DNA of 45,069 bases from Brevinematales bacterium (GTDB lineage Bacteria > Spirochaetota > Brevinematia > Brevinematales > Thermospiraceae): the NCBI GenBank assembly GCA_013177995.1, contig JABLXN010000013.1:1-45069 (forward strand), written 5' to 3'. Made by a program: the position numbers and the translations under genes. Each line of letters begins with the position of its first letter. Position 1 is the first letter of the stretch. The notes beneath the pieces are model-generated. The model searched no databases, was not told where the DNA came from, and saw only the letters and a program-made list of their open reading frames with translations. This document shows, piece by piece, positions 4,049 to 45,023 of this stretch.

Positions 4049-5028
4049 TGTCGTTCCACATTCATACAGAATGGTTATCTTCACACAAAAACTGAATAGT
4101 TGTTCGATCATCTTTTCTTTTTCAGTTTTGGGCTATTTTGTCACCCATTTTCCTTCTTTTACAAAGTACTCCCGTATGGGCAAAGGGGGCCTTGTCCTCG
4201 TCGCATGCTACGCATGCGCCTCGGACGGAAGACAGGCCGCTTTTGCGGGCAAAGAAAAACTTCTTCCTTTTCCAGGGGAAGCCCTTCCTCCGTGGGCGAC
4301 CTCAACTCGTCCTCCTGACTTCGGAAAAAGCGCTCCCGCGCGGGCAAAAGGGGCTCCGCCCCTTTTGAAAACCCCGCCCCCGCCCCTGCGGCGGTTTCTG
4401 TAGCCACCGACCTGTCTCCCATGGTGCGGGCTGGAAGAAAAGCCTGTAGCCCCACTCTCTTCTGTAGCCGCCCGGGGACAGCCCTCCGTGCCTGACCCCG
4501 GGCTTCCTCACCACCTCCTGTGGTTCGGACATCGGCAAGAAAATGGAGCCCTCTTCCAACAGCCCGCATGGCCTCTACTCCCACGGGGCTTCTCCGACGG
4601 CACACCGCAGGCAGGGGCGAGGGCTATGGCAATATCTCAGCAAGAAGGGGGCTTTCTGAGACCACAGGACCCAGGGCTATGACCTTGTTTCAGCTAAACA
4701 ACCCATCGGTTAAACGTTTAACCTATGTCTATACCTCTCCCTCTTTCTATTCCCATGTCTCAGCAAAAGCCCTCCAGCTCCGCTTTGGTGGGCTTGTGAG
4801 AAAAAACAACAAAAGATGTCGCCCCGGGTGCCTCCTGCACCCTCACTCCGGAAGGACTTCCCCCTTACGACAAAGGACGCACAACCGCAAAAGCGGCCCG
4901 GTGGATACTGAGCGAAGTCGAAGTGGGGTACAGAAAAAAAGGGGTGAAAGAACAGAGCTTTCTCGTGTTATTTCCTTGTTCATTAAGAAATGTGGAAATA
5001 GCTATTCAGTTTCCTATGTGGAACGACA
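4049..5028. mobile_element. Family B element: 980 bp with 13-bp terminal inverted repeats
   Basis: The ends are exact inverted copies, TGTCGTTCCACAT at 4049-4061 and its complement at 5016-5028. It is flanked by an 18-bp direct repeat (4031-4048 and 5029-5046, one mismatch) and lies inside family A copy A1. The middle (about 4170-4620) is strikingly GC-rich compared with the window. It holds open frames on both strands (for example 148 codons at 4159-4605 minus and 176 codons at 4520-5050 plus), but none has a recognisable domain, convincing ribosome-binding site or protein-like composition, so I call no gene. Around 4345-4385, read on the minus strand, it carries a relative of the GGGGCG-AGCCCC hairpin found in family A. 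It is likely non-autonomous or decayed. Confidence 0.65.
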
Positions 5029-9403: not shown

Positions 9404-9602
9404 GAGACTTTGCACGAATGTGCAAAGTCTCAAGAAAGTAATAGAAAACAGAAAGTAGTATAAAAATATTCCTTTCTATAATAAACAATCCTATTGTTGT
9501 GGATAAAAAAAGGCAAATAAGCCTTTGTAAACAGAAAAAGCGGGGAAGAGGGGCGTAGTCCCTGACCCAAACAGGGGAAGAAAATACCCGTGCAAGGGTT
9601 TC
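9404..9602 (+). repeat. Family A element, copy A3
   Basis: A 199-bp copy. The hairpin has 12 bp (GAGACTTTGCAC, loop GAAT, exact complement at 9420-9431): one base is missing from each arm compared with other copies, so pairing stays perfect. The right end is CCGTGCAAGGGTTTC. No matching flanks are seen. It fills the space between the promoter of the 7301-9346 gene and the end of the penicillin-binding protein gene. Confidence 0.78.
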
Positions 9603-18367: not shown

Positions 18368-19108
18368 TTAGTCGGAGACAGAGATATAAATGTCCACTCG
18401 CCGGTTGTATGCCCTTCCTTCTGGGGTGGCGTTACTTTCAATGGGGTCATATTCTCCTCGACCGGAAGCCTTCATGATAGAAGGATCTACCCCAAAGTCA
18501 GCCAGAAACCGGACCACAGAACTGGCCCGTGCTGTGGACAACTCCCAGTTGGATGGGTACACCTTGGCCATTTCGGAGGCACGGGGGATTTGCGTGTTAT
18601 CCGTATGGCCAATCACATCAATCTTGTAGCCTTCTTTGATGTTTTTGATCATCATGGCAATCTTTCGAAGGGTTTCCTTTCCTTCATCGAAGTCTATTTC
18701 GGCACTGCCTGGACGGAAAAAGAGGTCACTTGAGAGGGAGATTTTGATACCCTTCTGGGTTTCGTCTATACGGACTTTTCGAGCCCTGAGTTCTGGCTTG
18801 AGCATTTCCATCATCTCCTTCATGGAAATGGAGAGTTTGGTGCCCACTTCACGGGAGGGAAGGGATTCGACGGTGTGACCACCTTCGGCTAATTTCCCTG
18901 CGGAAAGGGTTTGTCCTCCCTCAAGAAACCCTATATTGCCGGTGAAAGCGGAGAGGATGAGTTGCAGGTCTGAGGTTTTGGCTTGAGGAGTCATGTTGGC
19001 AATAAGGAATACGAAGAAGGTGAGAAGGAGGTTATTCATGTCTCCGAAGGTCACCATCCATGCGGGGGTTGAATATCCTCCGGAGGGACATTTCTTTGGT
19101 CTTCCCAT
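18368..19108 (-). CDS. motB: Flagellar motor stator protein MotB
   Basis: 246 residues. MotB anchors the stator to peptidoglycan and carries the proton-binding Asp. The single membrane segment follows the conserved 'PAWMVTFGDMNNLLLTFFVF', with Asp 23 as the ion-binding residue. The C-terminal OmpA-like peptidoglycan-binding domain has 'VIGHTDNTQIP', 'NWELSTARASSVVRFL' and 'NRRVDIYI'. AAGGAG precedes the ATG at normal spacing; the gap to motA is 4 bases. In most spirochaetes fliL-fliM-fliN follow motB, but here a cupin gene follows and the strand then changes. Confidence 0.95.
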   Translation of the reverse strand: MGRPKKCPSGGYSTPAWMVTFGDMNNLLLTFFVFLIANMTPQAKTSDLQLILSAFTGNIGFLEGGQTLSAGKLAEGGHTVESLPSREVGTKLSISMKEMMEMLKPELRARKVRIDETQKGIKISLSSDLFFRPGSAEIDFDEGKETLRKIAMMIKNIKEGYKIDVIGHTDNTQIPRASEMAKVYPSNWELSTARASSVVRFLADFGVDPSIMKASGRGEYDPIESNATPEGRAYNRRVDIYISVSD

Positions 19109-19112
19109 GAGA

Positions 19113-19889
19113 CTACTCCTTCACTTCCTGTTTGGTGCGTTTGTCTGCCGGGACAAACGAGTTGAGACGTTCGCGCAGAATGGTGGGGTTATCACCGGCC
19201 TGAATGGAGAGCACTCCCTCTACCATAATCTCTTTTAAGAGAACCTCATACTGGTTGTAGAGGTCAAGACGGGAAGCCCATGGGAGAAAAAGGAAGTTGG
19301 CCATAATAGCACCGTAGAGGGTGGTGATAAGAGCCGTTGACATGTTGGCACCGATGGAGGCCACATCTGTCATGTTTTTGAGCATCGCAATAAGACCCTG
19401 AAGGGTCCCGATCATACCAAAAGCCGGGGCAAAATAAGCCCAGTCATCGAGCATCTTTTTCCCCTGGGCGTGGCGCTTTTCCAACTGGTCGAGTTCGTTG
19501 AACATGATGTTTTTCACCACCTCTGGGTCGGTACCATCCACCACAAGCTGGATGGCTTTTTTGAGAAAGGGATCGGGAACTTCGGCCACATCGTCTTCGA
19601 GGGAAAGCACACCCTCGCGTCTCGCTTTTTCGGCAAAGGTAACTAAGGTTTCAACGGTGGCTGCCGGGTCTATGCTGACCTTTTTGGTGGTGAGACCAAT
19701 AATCTTGGGGAGAAGTTTGAACCGTTCCATAGGGGTGGCTATCAAGAGAGACCCAAGAGAACCAAAAACGGTGGTGAAGAGGGACATAAGGTCCCAGTAA
19801 ATGAGGAGGTTTCCACCGGAACCAAGGAAGAATGAAAGGACAAGAAATCCGCCTCCTCCGACAAGTCCTATAAGCCATGCTAATTCCAT
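19113..19889 (-). CDS. motA: Flagellar motor stator protein MotA
   Basis: 258 residues, four membrane segments (near 5-22, 33-50, 150-170 and 180-205) and a large cytoplasmic loop. The loop carries the charged residues that contact FliG ('ARREGVLSLEDDV', matching the Arg and Glu region of E. coli MotA). The conserved Pro of 'FAPAFGMIGTLQGLIAML' lies at the third segment. AAGGAGG sits in the end of flbD, 3 bases separate the genes, and translation is probably coupled. With MotB it forms the proton-driven stator. Confidence 0.95.
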   Translation of the reverse strand: MELAWLIGLVGGGGFLVLSFFLGSGGNLLIYWDLMSLFTTVFGSLGSLLIATPMERFKLLPKIIGLTTKKVSIDPAATVETLVTFAEKARREGVLSLEDDVAEVPDPFLKKAIQLVVDGTDPEVVKNIMFNELDQLEKRHAQGKKMLDDWAYFAPAFGMIGTLQGLIAMLKNMTDVASIGANMSTALITTLYGAIMANFLFLPWASRLDLYNQYEVLLKEIMVEGVLSIQAGDNPTILRERLNSFVPADKRTKQEVKE

Positions 19890-34743: not shown

Positions 34744-37161
34744 TTAGCCTTTTCTGAGAATCTCCTGAGCCACCCGAACCGCATCCACCGCATCCACGGC
34801 ATAGTATGCCCCGATACTTGAGGCAAACTGTCGGGTTACAGCGGCTCCCCCTACCATCACAGGGGTTTTCATATTTTCCTTTTCAAGAAGCTCCATAAAT
34901 TCAGCCATTCTGGGCATGGTGGTGGTCATCAACGCTGATAAGCCAATAATATCTGCCTGATGTTCCCTTGCCACCTCATAGATCCGCTGGGCCGGGACAT
35001 CCTTGCCAAGGTCTATCACCTCAAAGCCCTGATTGCGGAGCATGAGGATGACAATATTTTTGCCAATATCATGCACATCCCCCTGCACAGTGGCAAAGAC
35101 GAGCTTCCCCTGCGACTTCTGACCCTCTGAGCGAAGGAGAGGCTCAAGCCTGGCAAAGGCCTTTTGCATGGTTTCGGCCGAAAGGAGAAGCTGGGGCAAA
35201 AAGTACTGCCGTTTCTCGTACAACTGCCCAACCTCTGTGATCGCAGGGATGAGAAGCCTGTCAAGAATATCCTTGGGAGCCAGGGAGTGGGAAAGTGCCT
35301 CAGCCAGAAGCCCCTCAATGGCATCCTTTTGTCCCTTGATAACCGCTTGCCGGATTCTCTCTTCAAGTGGCATATCTTTTGTCTGGGAGGAAGAAACAGA
35401 GGGAGGGGTTGTCCCTTTTTGGCCGGAGTAGAGACGAATATACTCCATGGCCGAGGGATCTCGCTCAAGAAGCACATCTGATGCCCGAACAAGCCCCATC
35501 TGTTGTTCGTCTAAGGGATTCACAATCGCCGAGGTAAGCCCGGCCTCCATAGCCATGGTGAGAAAGGCCTGATTGATAAAGGCCCTTGCAGGGAGGCCAA
35601 AGGAAACATTGGACAGCCCCATGGTGGTGAAAAGTCCCAGTTCCTCTCGAAACATCCTGAGGGTTTTCAGGGTTTCCTTCGCTGAACGTTGATCAGAGGA
35701 TACCGTCATAACCAACGGATCCGCCAGAATATTCTTTTTGTCTATTCCTGCTTTCTCCGTGGCTTCAAGAATGCGTCTCATGAGAGCCACGCGTTTCTCT
35801 GCTTTGTCGGGAATACCATGCGCATCAATGGGAAGGGCCACAAAGGCGGCTCCATATCGCTTCACATGAGGCAGGAGAGCAAGTCTCTCTGGCTCCGCGG
35901 TGAGAGAATTCAAAAGGGGTTTCCCTGGGTAGATTTTCATTCCCTGGATAGCGGCGGAAGGAGACGAGGTATCAATGGCTAACGGTACCCTGACTACGGT
36001 AGAAAGGAGATTGATGGCATTTTCCATCAAGGTAGCCTCATTGGCCTGGGGGATACCCATATTCACATCGAGTACATGGGCTCCGGCCTGTTGCTGTTTG
36101 AGAGCCTCCTCACGCACAAGGGCAAATCCACCCGAGAGAATATCTTCCACCAGGGCCTTGCGTGCGGTGGGATTGATACGTTCACCAATCACGGTAAAGG
36201 GAAGATCATGCCCTATTCTGTGAAACTCAAAACGACTTGAGAGTTTGAGAAAGGTTACCGCTCGTTTCTGATAACGAAGGTATGGTTTTTCTTTTTGGCT
36301 TCGTTCAATGAGAAGCCGGATGTATTCTGGTGTGGTCCCACAGCATCCCCCTATCACACAGGCACCATGTTCAAGCATATGCAGAGCCGTTTCCACATAA
36401 CTCTGTGGTGTTTCACTATAGTGGGTATGGCCATCGACGAGATGGGGAAGACCAGCATTGGCCTGAACGATGATCGGTGTCTCAAACAGATGCCCCACCC
36501 GTTCCATGATGGAGAGCATCTCCTTTGGACCAGTCCCACAGTTCATTCCCATGATATCGACACCAAGAGCCTCAAGGGTGGTAAAGGCGGCCTCCGGGCT
36601 TGTTCCTGTGACCATGCGGCCATCAGATTCAAAGGTCACACTGGCAATGATCGGAAGATCGCATACCTCTCTTGCGGCAAGAATGCCCGCCTTGAGTTCT
36701 AAGATATCAATATGCGTTTCAAAAAAGAGGGCATCCGCTCCCGCATTGGCCAAAGCCACAATCTGTTCTTTGTAGATATCCATCATCTCTTCAAAAGAGA
36801 TATCCCCTAAGGGCTTCACAAAATGCCCTGTTGGTCCAATATCAGCCGCCACAATAGCCCGTCCTCGTGAGGCTTCTTTGGCATTTCTTACCCCGGCTGC
36901 ATTGAGTTCTTCTAACCGGTGGGCAAGCCCATAGCTTTCGAGTTTGATTCTATTGCCCCCAAGGGTATTGGTGATCACAAGATCACTTCCTGCTTCAATG
37001 TAGGCCCGGTGAACACTCTGAACAATCTCTGGTCTGGTCACATTCCAGAGTTCTGGGCAATCTTCTCCCTTCAGACCATATTGTTGGAGAAAAACTCCCA
37101 TAGAACCATCGCTGTAGGCCACCCCATGTTTGGCCTTTTCAAGAAACTCCTGCCATGTCAT
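34744..37161 (-). CDS. metH: Cobalamin-dependent methionine synthase, short form
   Basis: 805 residues. It transfers a methyl group from methyltetrahydrofolate to homocysteine. Domains in order: homocysteine-binding barrel (1-290) with zinc ligands in 'GMNCGTGP' and 'GGCCGTTP'; pterin-binding domain (about 310-560, 'VIGERINPTARKA'); cobalamin cap and B12-binding domains (about 600-805, 'GDVHDIGKNIV' with the lower-ligand His, then 'GLSALMTTTMPRM'). The roughly 330-residue SAM-dependent reactivation domain of E. coli MetH is absent, as in Thermotoga and several Firmicutes, so oxidised cob(II)alamin must be repaired by another protein or tolerated. The ATG overlaps the stop of the hydrolase gene (ATGA), with GGAGG upstream, so it is the last gene of the operon that begins with the M50 protease. 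Confidence 0.93.
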   Translation of the reverse strand: MTWQEFLEKAKHGVAYSDGSMGVFLQQYGLKGEDCPELWNVTRPEIVQSVHRAYIEAGSDLVITNTLGGNRIKLESYGLAHRLEELNAAGVRNAKEASRGRAIVAADIGPTGHFVKPLGDISFEEMMDIYKEQIVALANAGADALFFETHIDILELKAGILAAREVCDLPIIASVTFESDGRMVTGTSPEAAFTTLEALGVDIMGMNCGTGPKEMLSIMERVGHLFETPIIVQANAGLPHLVDGHTHYSETPQSYVETALHMLEHGACVIGGCCGTTPEYIRLLIERSQKEKPYLRYQKRAVTFLKLSSRFEFHRIGHDLPFTVIGERINPTARKALVEDILSGGFALVREEALKQQQAGAHVLDVNMGIPQANEATLMENAINLLSTVVRVPLAIDTSSPSAAIQGMKIYPGKPLLNSLTAEPERLALLPHVKRYGAAFVALPIDAHGIPDKAEKRVALMRRILEATEKAGIDKKNILADPLVMTVSSDQRSAKETLKTLRMFREELGLFTTMGLSNVSFGLPARAFINQAFLTMAMEAGLTSAIVNPLDEQQMGLVRASDVLLERDPSAMEYIRLYSGQKGTTPPSVSSSQTKDMPLEERIRQAVIKGQKDAIEGLLAEALSHSLAPKDILDRLLIPAITEVGQLYEKRQYFLPQLLLSAETMQKAFARLEPLLRSEGQKSQGKLVFATVQGDVHDIGKNIVILMLRNQGFEVIDLGKDVPAQRIYEVAREHQADIIGLSALMTTTMPRMAEFMELLEKENMKTPVMVGGAAVTRQFASSIGAYYAVDAVDAVRVAQEILRKG

Positions 37162-38399
37162 ATACCCTCCAAAAACGAGAGAATATCCTGATATATCTCT
37201 AGCCTATTTCTTTCCATCAAAAGATGATGGTTGCCAGGATAGAGTTTCACCTCTAAGGACGGAAAGAGCCTCTGAAGAACAGGAAGGTTGTACTTCCAGT
37301 CCACGACGCTATCCTCTCTTCCCTGCACCATCAGGACGGGAAATGTTCCAAAAGAAGGATACAGGATAACCCTTTCATGCCAGTTTCTTGCCGCTCGAAG
37401 CCAGGAGAGATGGACCTTTTTCTCCTGAAGGGGGTCTTTGTTGTAGATAAAATCCAGAAAATCCTTGTCTGAGGTGGTTTTGTTCTGAGAACGGGGAACC
37501 TCTGTCAAAATCCCCCCAAGGATATTGTAGCCCATGAGAGCCATGTTCCAGTTAACAAGTCGCACAAGGGGAGAAACAAGCACCAATTTTTCTATCCGTT
37601 TTTCTCTTCTATGGTTGTGAAGGTACTCAATCCATACCGAACACCCTGTACTGAAACCCATGGCCACAAAGCGTTGGGGAACATCCACCCTTTGAAGGAC
37701 ACTCTCGAGAGCCTCAGCATACTCAGAAAAATCCTCTATCCCTGTTCGAAGCCCACTGGAAAGTCCATGTCCGGGCAAATCCATCGCCACAATGGTGTAC
37801 CCTTGAGCAAGAAAAAACTCATAAAAAGCCCCATAGTTTCCCACATGATCAAGATATCCATGCACAAAGACAATGGTTTTCTGAGACTTTTGAGGCAGAA
37901 ACTTGAGCACAAACACGGTATTTGTCCGCTGCCATGACACCACAAAACTCTGGATCCGGACTCCTTCCCACGAGAGATGATAAAAGTGAAGATAGTCACC
38001 TAAGATTTCCGTTGCATTGGTTTTTCCATTTGCCTGAAAGGCAAGATTTGTCCACTTCGTATAGGTATTTGTTTGGGCATACCCAAACCCCACCAAAAGA
38101 AAAAGACTACACAATACGAGACCTTTGCACGAATGTGCGAAGGTCTCAAAAAAGTAATAAAAAAACAAAAATAGTATAAAAATATTCCTTTTCGTAATCA
38201 ATAATTCTATTTTTTTTGAATAGAAAAGACAAGTAAGCCCCTGTAAACAGAAAAATCGGGGTTTCAGGGTCGAGAGCCACAAGTTCACCGTTGTGGTACT
38301 CGTATACTGTAAACAGAAAAATCGGGGTTTCAGGGGCGCAGCCCCTGACCCAAACAGGGCAAGAAAGCACCCGTGCAAGGGTCTCAATACTCTTTTCAT
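37158..38399 (-). CDS. Exported alpha/beta hydrolase (monoacylglycerol-lipase type) with a family A insertion in its signal peptide
   Basis: 413 codons as it stands. The catalytic part has 'IVFVHGYLDHVGNYG', nucleophile elbow GFSTG, acid Asp in 'GREDSVVD' and His in 'GNHHLL', so it is a serine hydrolase of the Hydrolase_4 group. The ATG at 38399 overlaps the stop of the Fic-like gene and has CAGGAG upstream. Codons 1-5 read MKRVL; then 91 in-frame codons (the 268-bp family A copy plus a duplicated AATAC) interrupt; the gene resumes with 'CSLFLLVGFGYAQ'. The empty site reads MKRVLCSLFLLVGFGYAQ, a perfect signal peptide of a 322-residue protein. Reading through the element adds a long hydrophobic stretch, so export may change. 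A TTG inside the element (about 38201) could be an alternative start but lacks a ribosome-binding site. The end overlaps metH by ATGA. Confidence 0.8.
   Translation of the reverse strand: MKRVLRPLHGCFLALFGSGAAPLKPRFFCLQYTSTTTVNLWLSTLKPRFFCLQGLTCLFYSKKIELLITKRNIFILFLFFYYFFETFAHSCKGLVLCSLFLLVGFGYAQTNTYTKWTNLAFQANGKTNATEILGDYLHFYHLSWEGVRIQSFVVSWQRTNTVFVLKFLPQKSQKTIVFVHGYLDHVGNYGAFYEFFLAQGYTIVAMDLPGHGLSSGLRTGIEDFSEYAEALESVLQRVDVPQRFVAMGFSTGCSVWIEYLHNHRREKRIEKLVLVSPLVRLVNWNMALMGYNILGGILTEVPRSQNKTTSDKDFLDFIYNKDPLQEKKVHLSWLRAARNWHERVILYPSFGTFPVLMVQGREDSVVDWKYNLPVLQRLFPSLEVKLYPGNHHLLMERNRLEIYQDILSFLEGI
38118..38385 (+). repeat. Family A element, copy A6 (enlarged, inside a gene)
   Basis: 268 bp, with perfect target duplication AATAC (38113-38117 and 38386-38390). 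The hairpin is identical in sequence to that of copy A4. It is longer than other copies because a 29-bp segment (38241-38269) is repeated at 38307-38335, with 37 bases between them. Those 37 bases hold their own small hairpin (CCACAA and TTGTGG arms, about 38277-38296). The whole copy is open in the minus-strand frame of the hydrolase gene. The right end is CCGTGCAAGGGTCTC. Confidence 0.88.
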
Positions 38400-39070
38400 G
38401 GATTCTCCTGACAATATTTTGAGATAAGATAACGGGTATCCCCATATTTTTCAAGAAGGGAGTAGATGCTTCCCTCTGAAACGCCTATCTGGGTGATCTG
38501 GTCAAGCCATTTGTCCTTGTCGCTATATTTGATTCGGCTGGATGGATTGAAGTAGGCTATGGCATTTTCCACCGTGAGGATAAAGGGAGGAAAACCGTCC
38601 CCTACGAGAAGGTAATTCAGCACAATATTTCCCGTGCGGTGATTCCCCTCGATGAAGAGCTGGGGCTGACTGAGAGCAAGGGTATAAAACTGGGCAGCCT
38701 TGCGAAGGGAGGGGAGTTTTTTGCCCTTTTCTTTGTACCACTTGAGAATTCTTCCTATCCTTTTCTGAAACCTTTCCCTTGTACTGAGGATATGCTGATG
38801 AAACTCGAACCGTTTTGCCGGGTCTTTTCCACAAAGCACAATGTGGTTGAGTTCCAGCATAGCATATACCCCCGCAGGATTAAAGAGGTCTATGTCCTGG
38901 GCAAGAAGGGTATTGAGATACTCATACGCTAAAAGAATATGCTCTATAATTTCCAATGTCATCGGTTCACGTTTTGTTTCGAGTTTGGCATTGATCTCGT
39001 CAAAGTGGTAGTAAACCTCCAAAAGGCTTTCCCGAATAGCGGGAAGGTTAAAAAGACATCCCTTTTTCAT
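38396..39070 (-). CDS. Fic-like protein lacking the catalytic histidine
   Basis: 224 residues. Residues about 145-165 carry a Fic-type motif, but it reads 'QPQLFIEGNHRTGN' where active AMP-transferases have HPFxEGNGRxxR: the catalytic His is Gln and the last Arg is Asn, while Phe, Glu, Gly-Asn and the first Arg are kept. The phosphate-binding loop may thus survive without AMPylation by the usual mechanism. The rest is helical, as in Fic domains. The start overlaps the TPR gene stop (ATGA) and its stop overlaps the hydrolase start (ATGA). It may be a binding protein or use another chemistry. Confidence 0.7.
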   Translation of the reverse strand: MKKGCLFNLPAIRESLLEVYYHFDEINAKLETKREPMTLEIIEHILLAYEYLNTLLAQDIDLFNPAGVYAMLELNHIVLCGKDPAKRFEFHQHILSTRERFQKRIGRILKWYKEKGKKLPSLRKAAQFYTLALSQPQLFIEGNHRTGNIVLNYLLVGDGFPPFILTVENAIAYFNPSSRIKYSDKDKWLDQITQIGVSEGSIYSLLEKYGDTRYLISKYCQENP

Positions 39071-44943: not shown

Positions 44944-44984
44944 TGTCGTTCCACATATGAAACTGAATACCTATTTTCACATTT
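44944..44984 (+). repeat. Lone end of family B element
   Basis: 41 bases match the right end of the 980-bp element (4988-5028, reverse complement) with 3 differences, including the exact TGTCGTTCCACAT terminus. No opposite end is visible in the remaining 85 bases of the window, so it is a solo end or a relict. It stands between the divergent regulator operon and the gene at 45024. Confidence 0.65.
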
Positions 44985-45023
44985 GACAAAGAAGGGGCAA
45001 CGAAGGGATAATAAGGAGGAACT

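Follow-up and report, generated by a model that had tools for sequence, protein, structure and literature searches.

Background

Prokaryotic miniature inverted-repeat transposable elements (MITEs) are described as normally intergenic, whereas Rickettsia palindromic elements (RPEs) are described as being unusually often in frame (PMC10969869). Bacterial MITEs that are moved by IS5-family insertion sequences (ISs) are short and without a transposase, have terminal inverted repeats (TIRs) like those of a resident IS, produce 5-bp target duplications and occur in many, mostly intergenic, copies. Here we analyze an element with these properties in an alpha/beta-hydrolase gene of a Brevinematales bacterium (GenBank assembly GCA_013177995.1). 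The window, i.e. the whole stretch of 45,069 nucleotides that was analyzed, is contig C5 (JABLXN010000013.1) of this draft genome (G000; 2.38 Mb in 57 contigs); two congeners, G001 and G002, were used for comparison. The element differs from other IS5-type MITEs in that its left end is a 30-bp hairpin and in that one copy lies in frame in a putative signal peptide, together with a second insertion.

This second insertion resembles a spacer of clustered regularly interspaced short palindromic repeats (CRISPR) placed outside its array. In off-target spacer integration a duplication of repeat length is the general scheme, and natural cases were reportedly also proposed by Nivala and co-workers. 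Off-target integration has been observed upon overexpression of Cas1-Cas2 (Nivala 2018, as cited in PMC11788318), purified S. thermophilus Cas1-Cas2 is described as integrating off target in vitro with a ruler that sets the distance of the second attack (PMC6895254), and a possible cellular repression of integration outside arrays is discussed in PMC9456107. Our locus shares with the events of Nivala et al. 2018 the spacer insert outside the array; it differs in that it concerns protein genes in a natural draft genome, with host donors in three of four cases and sizes that follow the array of the species. The S. thermophilus system is different again, as it is described as in vitro, likely half-site and of type II-A (PMC6895254). 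Among the titles and abstract openings covered by our literature search (which took in few subscription journals) none announces such insertions in coding genes.

Two successive insertions in the hydrolase gene

The hydrolase gene contains 91 extra codons, and with a probability of roughly 0.8 these were made by two successive insertions: that of a MITE and then that of an off-target CRISPR spacer. The features concerned are the following (window coordinates):

37158 to 38399, minus strand: alpha/beta-hydrolase open reading frame (ORF), 413 aa with the insert, PF12146 Hydrolase_4, ATG at 38399, stop at 37158-37160
38386 to 38390, unstranded: target-site duplication AATAC, start-codon side
38118 to 38385, plus strand: MITE copy of 268 bp (202 bp of family body and 66 bp of inner insertion), ends GAGACCTTTGCACG / CGTGCAAGGGTCTC
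38307 to 38335, unstranded: 29-bp direct repeat, copy 2 (66 bp from start to start)
38270 to 38306, unstranded: 37-bp spacer-like insert (inner 31 bases without a second genomic site when up to 3 mismatches are allowed)
38241 to 38269, unstranded: 29-bp direct repeat CTGTAAACAGAAAAATCGGGGTTTCAGGG, copy 1 (target duplication)
38118 to 38147, unstranded: terminal 30-bp hairpin, left MITE end (1 mismatch against the commonest form)
38113 to 38117, unstranded: target-site duplication AATAC, hydrolase-body side

An initial annotation of this DNA had proposed a mobile repeat whose empty site can be rebuilt exactly, and this is borne out: the arrangement is AATAC / 268 bp / AATAC, and removal of the element and one AATAC yields the protein start MKRVLCSLFLLVGFGYAQTNTYTKWTNLAF, with the insertion point after codon 5. 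The rebuilt start aligns without a gap at the insertion site to the start in G001 (MKIFVFVLFFLVGGGYAANLSYDRWTNLAW), and the G002 protein begins with MKYLFIFFVCILLSHGYADYHTWTNLAH. Both congeners have an uninterrupted hydrolase gene between the same two neighbours, i.e. a natural empty site, and neither carries the 91 residues. The element with one AATAC amounts to 273 bp, or 91 codons, and the ORF is open from the ATG to the stop, so that the frame is kept as annotated. Also present are the ATGA overlap with metH, which is preserved, and the ATGA overlap and AGGAG at the hydrolase start. Two other claims stand in part. A signal peptide at the rebuilt start is suggested by the appearance and hydropathy of the sequence, and to that extent the annotation can be followed. 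The 268-bp element is a real mobile insertion, though not a single event: its inner 66 bp, an excess over the family length that had been overlooked, are a separate second insertion.

Chance is excluded as a source of the repeat. The element matches 92 pieces in the genome (the left and right parts of a copy being counted separately) and its end motif has 221 exact matches (111 + 110), against 0 for the reversed control. We first parsed 95 pairs, from which lengths outside 190-270 bp and duplicates were removed to leave 90 copies; a gene-context check kept 89, and copies in stretches sampled later were not added. Nearly all of the 90 (87) measure 197-208 bp, with 28 of 201 bp and 27 of 202 bp. 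The hydrolase copy is the only one of 268 bp, and the lengths of 256 and 267 bp come from alternative pairings in which one end belongs to another parsed copy as well. An exact 5-bp target duplication is seen for 48 of the 90 (AATAC at the hydrolase copy). With its high copy number, the absence of a transposase of its own and a target duplication of constant length, the family has the properties of an IS5-family-type MITE.

A candidate parent is available in the same genome: one intact IS of 1366 bp (contig C27; ends GAGACCCTTGCACGGGTAG / GAGACCCTTGCACGACTC) encodes a 383-aa transposase that scores 283.3 bits with the IS5-family model NF033581 (cut-off 140). The right end of the MITE and the left end of the IS have GAGACCCTTGCACGGGT in common, the left end of the MITE being GAGACCTTTGCACG, and the TIRs of the two match. 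Judged from the sequence, the MITE is probably moved by this resident IS5-family transposase. A search for the transposase in 12 relatives gave a decayed fragment in G001, proteins of 31-35% identity in G006 and G011, and nothing in G002. A long structure on contig C3 (36015-37398) was also considered as parent IS and rejected; its ORFs are by eye unlike a transposase and it reads as nested repeats (a family search was not run).

The 66 bp consist of an exact 29-bp duplication of MITE sequence and the 37-bp insert; minus these, the hydrolase element measures 202 bp and aligns to the MITE consensus end to end. A tandem duplication of 66 bp is ruled out by the single occurrence of the 37 bp. Neither is the structure an array, which would have at least three regularly spaced copies of its own repeat, as against the two copies of a MITE-derived 29-mer seen here. 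What remains is a spacer-length insert between direct repeats of CRISPR-repeat length, and the 66 bp look like an off-target integration of a CRISPR spacer with Cas1-Cas2 as the putative agent. The frame survived because each of the two additions, 202 + 5 = 207 bp and 66 bp, is divisible by three.

The proposed course of events is as follows. A 202-bp non-autonomous MITE would have entered after codon 5 with a 5-bp duplication, probably by means of the resident IS5-family transposase; read along its T-rich strand it supplies codons for hydrophobic residues, and a signal peptide may accommodate these. The type I-B Cas1-Cas2 integrase would then have placed a 37-bp prespacer in the MITE instead of in the array, duplicating 29 bp of the target just as it would the 29-bp repeat of the array, and the resulting 66 bp (22 codons) would again keep the frame. 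Translation would most likely still begin at the original ATG, which has a ribosome site of its own, and continue across the insert.

Consequences for the enzyme

The T-rich strand of the insert reads as F, L, I and Y, and the insert consequently adds a hydrophobic peak (residues 73-83, by hydropathy) ahead of the signal core, which is retained (peak 94-104). At the RNA level the insert with its flanks (38060-38430) folds strongly, with a z of -6.2. An AlphaFold model of the long protein, made from a two-sequence alignment, is uninformative at a mean predicted local distance difference test score (pLDDT) of 34.1.

It may be argued that the gene is turning into a pseudogene, in which case the extended N-terminus would no longer export the enzyme and the frame would be open by chance or for the sake of metH coupling. 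The two hydrophobic peaks with the short loop between them could indeed form a hairpin that leaves the enzyme cytoplasmic. Nonetheless, the body of the hydrolase is intact (GFSTG motif by eye, 76% identity to the G001 protein), and the copy is without an in-frame stop even though 6.5% of its positions deviate from the MITE consensus. We regard such decay as somewhat unlikely.

Alternatively, the functional start may have moved: the hydrolase would then be shorter, transcribed from a promoter-like site in the MITE and translated from an internal TTG (codon 67 or 96), while the long ORF would stay untranslated. The site in question is:

38173 to 38201, minus strand: promoter-like TTGATT-17-TATACT in the MITE, directed towards the hydrolase body (matches 9 of 12 consensus bases)

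Four promoter-like sites occur between 37900 and 38600, where shuffled sequences have 1.1 on average. At least 9 of 12 consensus bases are present in 62 of 88 copies (32 of 88 for mononucleotide shuffles), the copies not being independent of each other, and after the TTG of codon 67 the protein continues with ITKRNIFILFLFFYYFF, which resembles a signal anchor. On the other hand, TATACT occurs in 60 of the 88 copies but is preceded by TTGATT at spacing 17 in only 8, and the in-frame start codons inside the insert show by eye no convincing ribosome site, while the ATG at 38399 retains its AGGAG at good spacing. An outward promoter of the MITE is possible but weak, and a relocated start is unlikely; translation from the original ATG is the reading that we prefer.

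Insertions that follow the size of the resident array

The genome contains a type I-B locus (Cas1b, Cas2b, Cas4b, Cas3b, Cas5b, Cas7b, Cas8b, Cas11b and Cas6b). Its array is made up of four repeats of 29 bp and three spacers of 36 bp (period 65) and is adjoined by the adaptation module of matching type (Cas1b, Cas2b, Cas4b). A second Cas1 lies near a large array on contig C1 (L130:4358-7000 and 18935-19600) with a repeat of about 35 bp; its period of 69-79 does not fit the structures described below.

In about 1.45 Mb of distinct G000 sequence we found four solitary structures of the type duplication-insert-duplication, all with a period of 65-66. In addition to the hydrolase gene (29 + 37) these are the first three of the following list, to which the one found in G002 is added:

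L115:2417-2512 (G000 contig C36): alpha-amylase-like gene, 30-bp duplication + 36-bp insert, period 66, in frame
L045:1824-1917 (G000 contig C15): M14 peptidase/ankyrin gene, 29 + 36 = 65, frame shifted near the C-terminus
L149:1587-1683 (G000 contig C45): ResIII-type gene, exact run 31 + 35 = 66, in frame, 22 codons
L180:18940-19050 (G002): unnamed ORF, 38 + 35 = 73, frame shifted near the end of the ORF

The ResIII structure becomes 30 + 36 if a base shared with the donor is assigned to the insert; the array has 29 + 36. Three of the four inserts (amylase, ankyrin and ResIII) come from another identifiable DNA source. The amylase insert is identical to the 36 terminal bp of MITE copies (36/36) and is absent from both congeners; the ankyrin insert corresponds to part of a host MinD/ParA-type gene (33/36; flhG-like by eye), and the ResIII insert matches the host GAPDH gene (36/36 with the shared base; no exact match in IMG/VR). 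Removing the 65 bp from the ankyrin gene restores an ankyrin-like C-terminus.

The scans looked for exact direct repeats of at least 20 bp at a spacing of 35-200, with a simple low-complexity filter, in a first set of 104 loci (437,729 b with overlaps) and subsequently in three sets of 20 stretches (396,012, 376,500 and 314,977 b). CRISPR arrays, MITE-in-MITE, tandem and coiled-coil-type repeats and tRNA genes were excluded from the counts. Also set aside were a misfit at L131:11687-11799, the 21-23 bp repeats (L175, L178), tandem families and L247 in G002, and a 23-bp repeat at spacing 198 (L201) and a tRNA repeat in G001. The L131 misfit lies just outside the IS, some 5 kb from a Cas1 fragment, and is unlike the I-B sizes. 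The amylase structure was met by accident, and the idea of an off-target spacer was framed before any array had been seen. Since the events other than that in the ResIII gene stem from MITE-centred or transposase-centred loci, no rate of events can be derived.

The arrays of the congeners allow a further comparison. That of G001 has a near-identical 29-bp repeat and 36-bp spacers, with one or more spacers of 37 bp (there with a period of 66); the Cas1 search recovered only a part of its Cas1. The array of G002, beside its own Cas1, has exact runs of 38 and 39 bp that stand 35 bp apart (periods of 73 and 74), and the L180 structure is the sole comparable event in a first 400-kb sample of that genome. 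These array dimensions were seen only after the event had been recorded; a donor for its insert was not found in the G002 sequence sampled. That the scar size follows the resident array in two species (with one event on the side of G002) is the strongest argument for Cas1-Cas2 as the probable agent.

A different origin of the inner 66 bp, with the MITE step left as it is, would be templated repair or replication slippage, by which a copied piece is inserted along with a local duplication. The inserts do come from ordinary host genes, as templated insertions can, the target sites show little sequence rule and one period-66 repeat has other proportions. Such processes are, however, expected to give variable sizes, whereas all four G000 events have a period of 65-66 with a duplication of 29-30 bp and an insert of 36-37 bp, and the single event of G002 follows G002's own array. 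By simple arithmetic, with a uniform distribution over the 166 scanned spacings, the probability that two post-hypothesis events both fall at 65-66 is about 1.5e-4. We therefore consider repair or slippage improbable and retain off-target spacer integration as the preferred origin.

A number of observations weigh against the two-step origin. For the MITE step, the exact 5-bp duplication is missing in 42 of the 90 parsed copies, and the parent IS itself is flanked by an imperfect one (AGAAA/AAAAA). For the spacer step, the donor of the 37 bp in the hydrolase gene was not found: the inner 31 bases have no second site in the genome at up to 3 mismatches, and the insert has no exact match in IMG/VR (phage matches being partial, with E of at least 2). 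A second 400-kb sample of G002 and 400 kb of G001 contained no event, and from the 60 G000 stretches that were chosen regardless of repeats (1,087,489 b) only the ResIII event was obtained. Further, the repeat at L131:11687-11799 (G000 contig C27) has a period of 66 with proportions of about 38/28 and one mismatch. Finally, similarity between the targets and the CRISPR repeat is weak, with p values of 0.041 (hydrolase), 0.02 and 0.02 at three of the four sites and 0.995 at the fourth.

Distribution of the MITE family

Of the 89 parsed copies, 24 are situated in an ORF that has 100 codons or more once the copy is taken out, and by eye most of these ORFs are not real genes; the hydrolase copy alone is in frame within an intact-looking gene (gene reality being judged mostly by eye). 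For 34 of 90 copies the length plus 5 is divisible by three, and 19 of those 34 have an open frame; at random orientation and phase a copy is in frame and open with a probability of 0.035. The hydrolase copy is a single tolerated insertion of a mostly intergenic family that has no habit of entering genes. It is very improbable that we are dealing with a palindromic element like those of Rickettsia, protein-coding and under selection for in-frame entry and a tolerated peptide: the hydrolase copy is a mobile repeat read in frame and stop-free within a gene, as described for RPEs in Rickettsia genes (PMC10969869), but the in-frame genic site is here the exception (1 of 89), the frame counts given above speak against such selection, the open frame of this copy depends on an extra homopolymer base compared with the 201-bp consensus, and the TIRs, the 5-bp duplication and the candidate IS5-family parent are those of a MITE. 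The likeness in kind drawn by the initial annotation is not supported.

No blastn match with a 201-bp copy was obtained in G001 or G002 (19 first-look candidates scored in each). In a comparison with 41 genomes ten other relatives match over 24-51 bp, mostly in the A+T-rich part, and these matches are taken as chance.

Some further observations concern the family as such. Four more copies are located in the window (7120, 9424, 17700 and 34553); compared with the copy at 9424 over 122 ungapped nt, three window copies are 61-73% identical and the hydrolase copy 80%. Solo 30-bp terminal hairpins are present at L073:1510-1539 and L115:468-497, the former flanked by a 5-bp AAACT duplication, which suggests that the hairpin alone may move. 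At L108:1496-1697 a MITE copy lies in an ORF that is radical-SAM-like by eye, apparently with the middle of the gene deleted. A second repeat family (TGTCGTTCCACAT...) forms an inverted pair in the window (4979-5028 and 44944-44993) and also adjoins copies of the first MITE, e.g. in L051.

Gene neighbourhood

The hydrolase gene is the middle one of three minus-strand genes (224-aa gene, hydrolase, metH) with successive ATGA overlaps, both of which recur in G001 and G002. Its neighbours are:

38396 to 39070, minus strand: 224-aa gene, upstream, overlapping the hydrolase start by ATGA
34744 to 37161, minus strand: metH-like methionine synthase, its start overlapping the hydrolase stop (ATGA)

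With the hydrolase the best NCBIfam model, NF052543 (phospholipase BipL), reaches 199.7 bits where its cut-off is 450, and the sole named match of the hydrolase is in the metagenome-assembled genome SKW221 'Brevinematales bacterium' (JAOADA010000007.1). Pfam and NCBIfam searches with the 224-aa protein gave no match; by eye it may contain a Fic-like motif. An Rfam search of the window at gathering scores gave 0 matches.

Conclusions

MITEs and off-target Cas1-Cas2 integration are already known kinds, and the present case is a variant of these. Its MITE part is ordinary except for the position in the signal peptide, which offers a clean natural test of how much such a peptide can absorb; if our reading is true, the hydrolase gene carries a scar inside a transposable element inside an export signal. 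We find it quite likely that Cas1-Cas2 acts in this genus as a natural mutagen, which would insert spacer-sized fragments of the cell's own genes into other genes, each with a duplication of repeat length and sometimes with 22 codons added in frame. The scar size would be set by the CRISPR type of the species, at 65-66 bp where the repeats have 29 bp and at 73 bp where they have about 38 bp. If so, comparing the size signature with the genome's own array would make natural off-target Cas1-Cas2 integrations countable, and their donors and targets could be named. From such counts a rate of CRISPR self-damage would be obtainable, and the same process would provide a route for small in-frame insertions into proteins.

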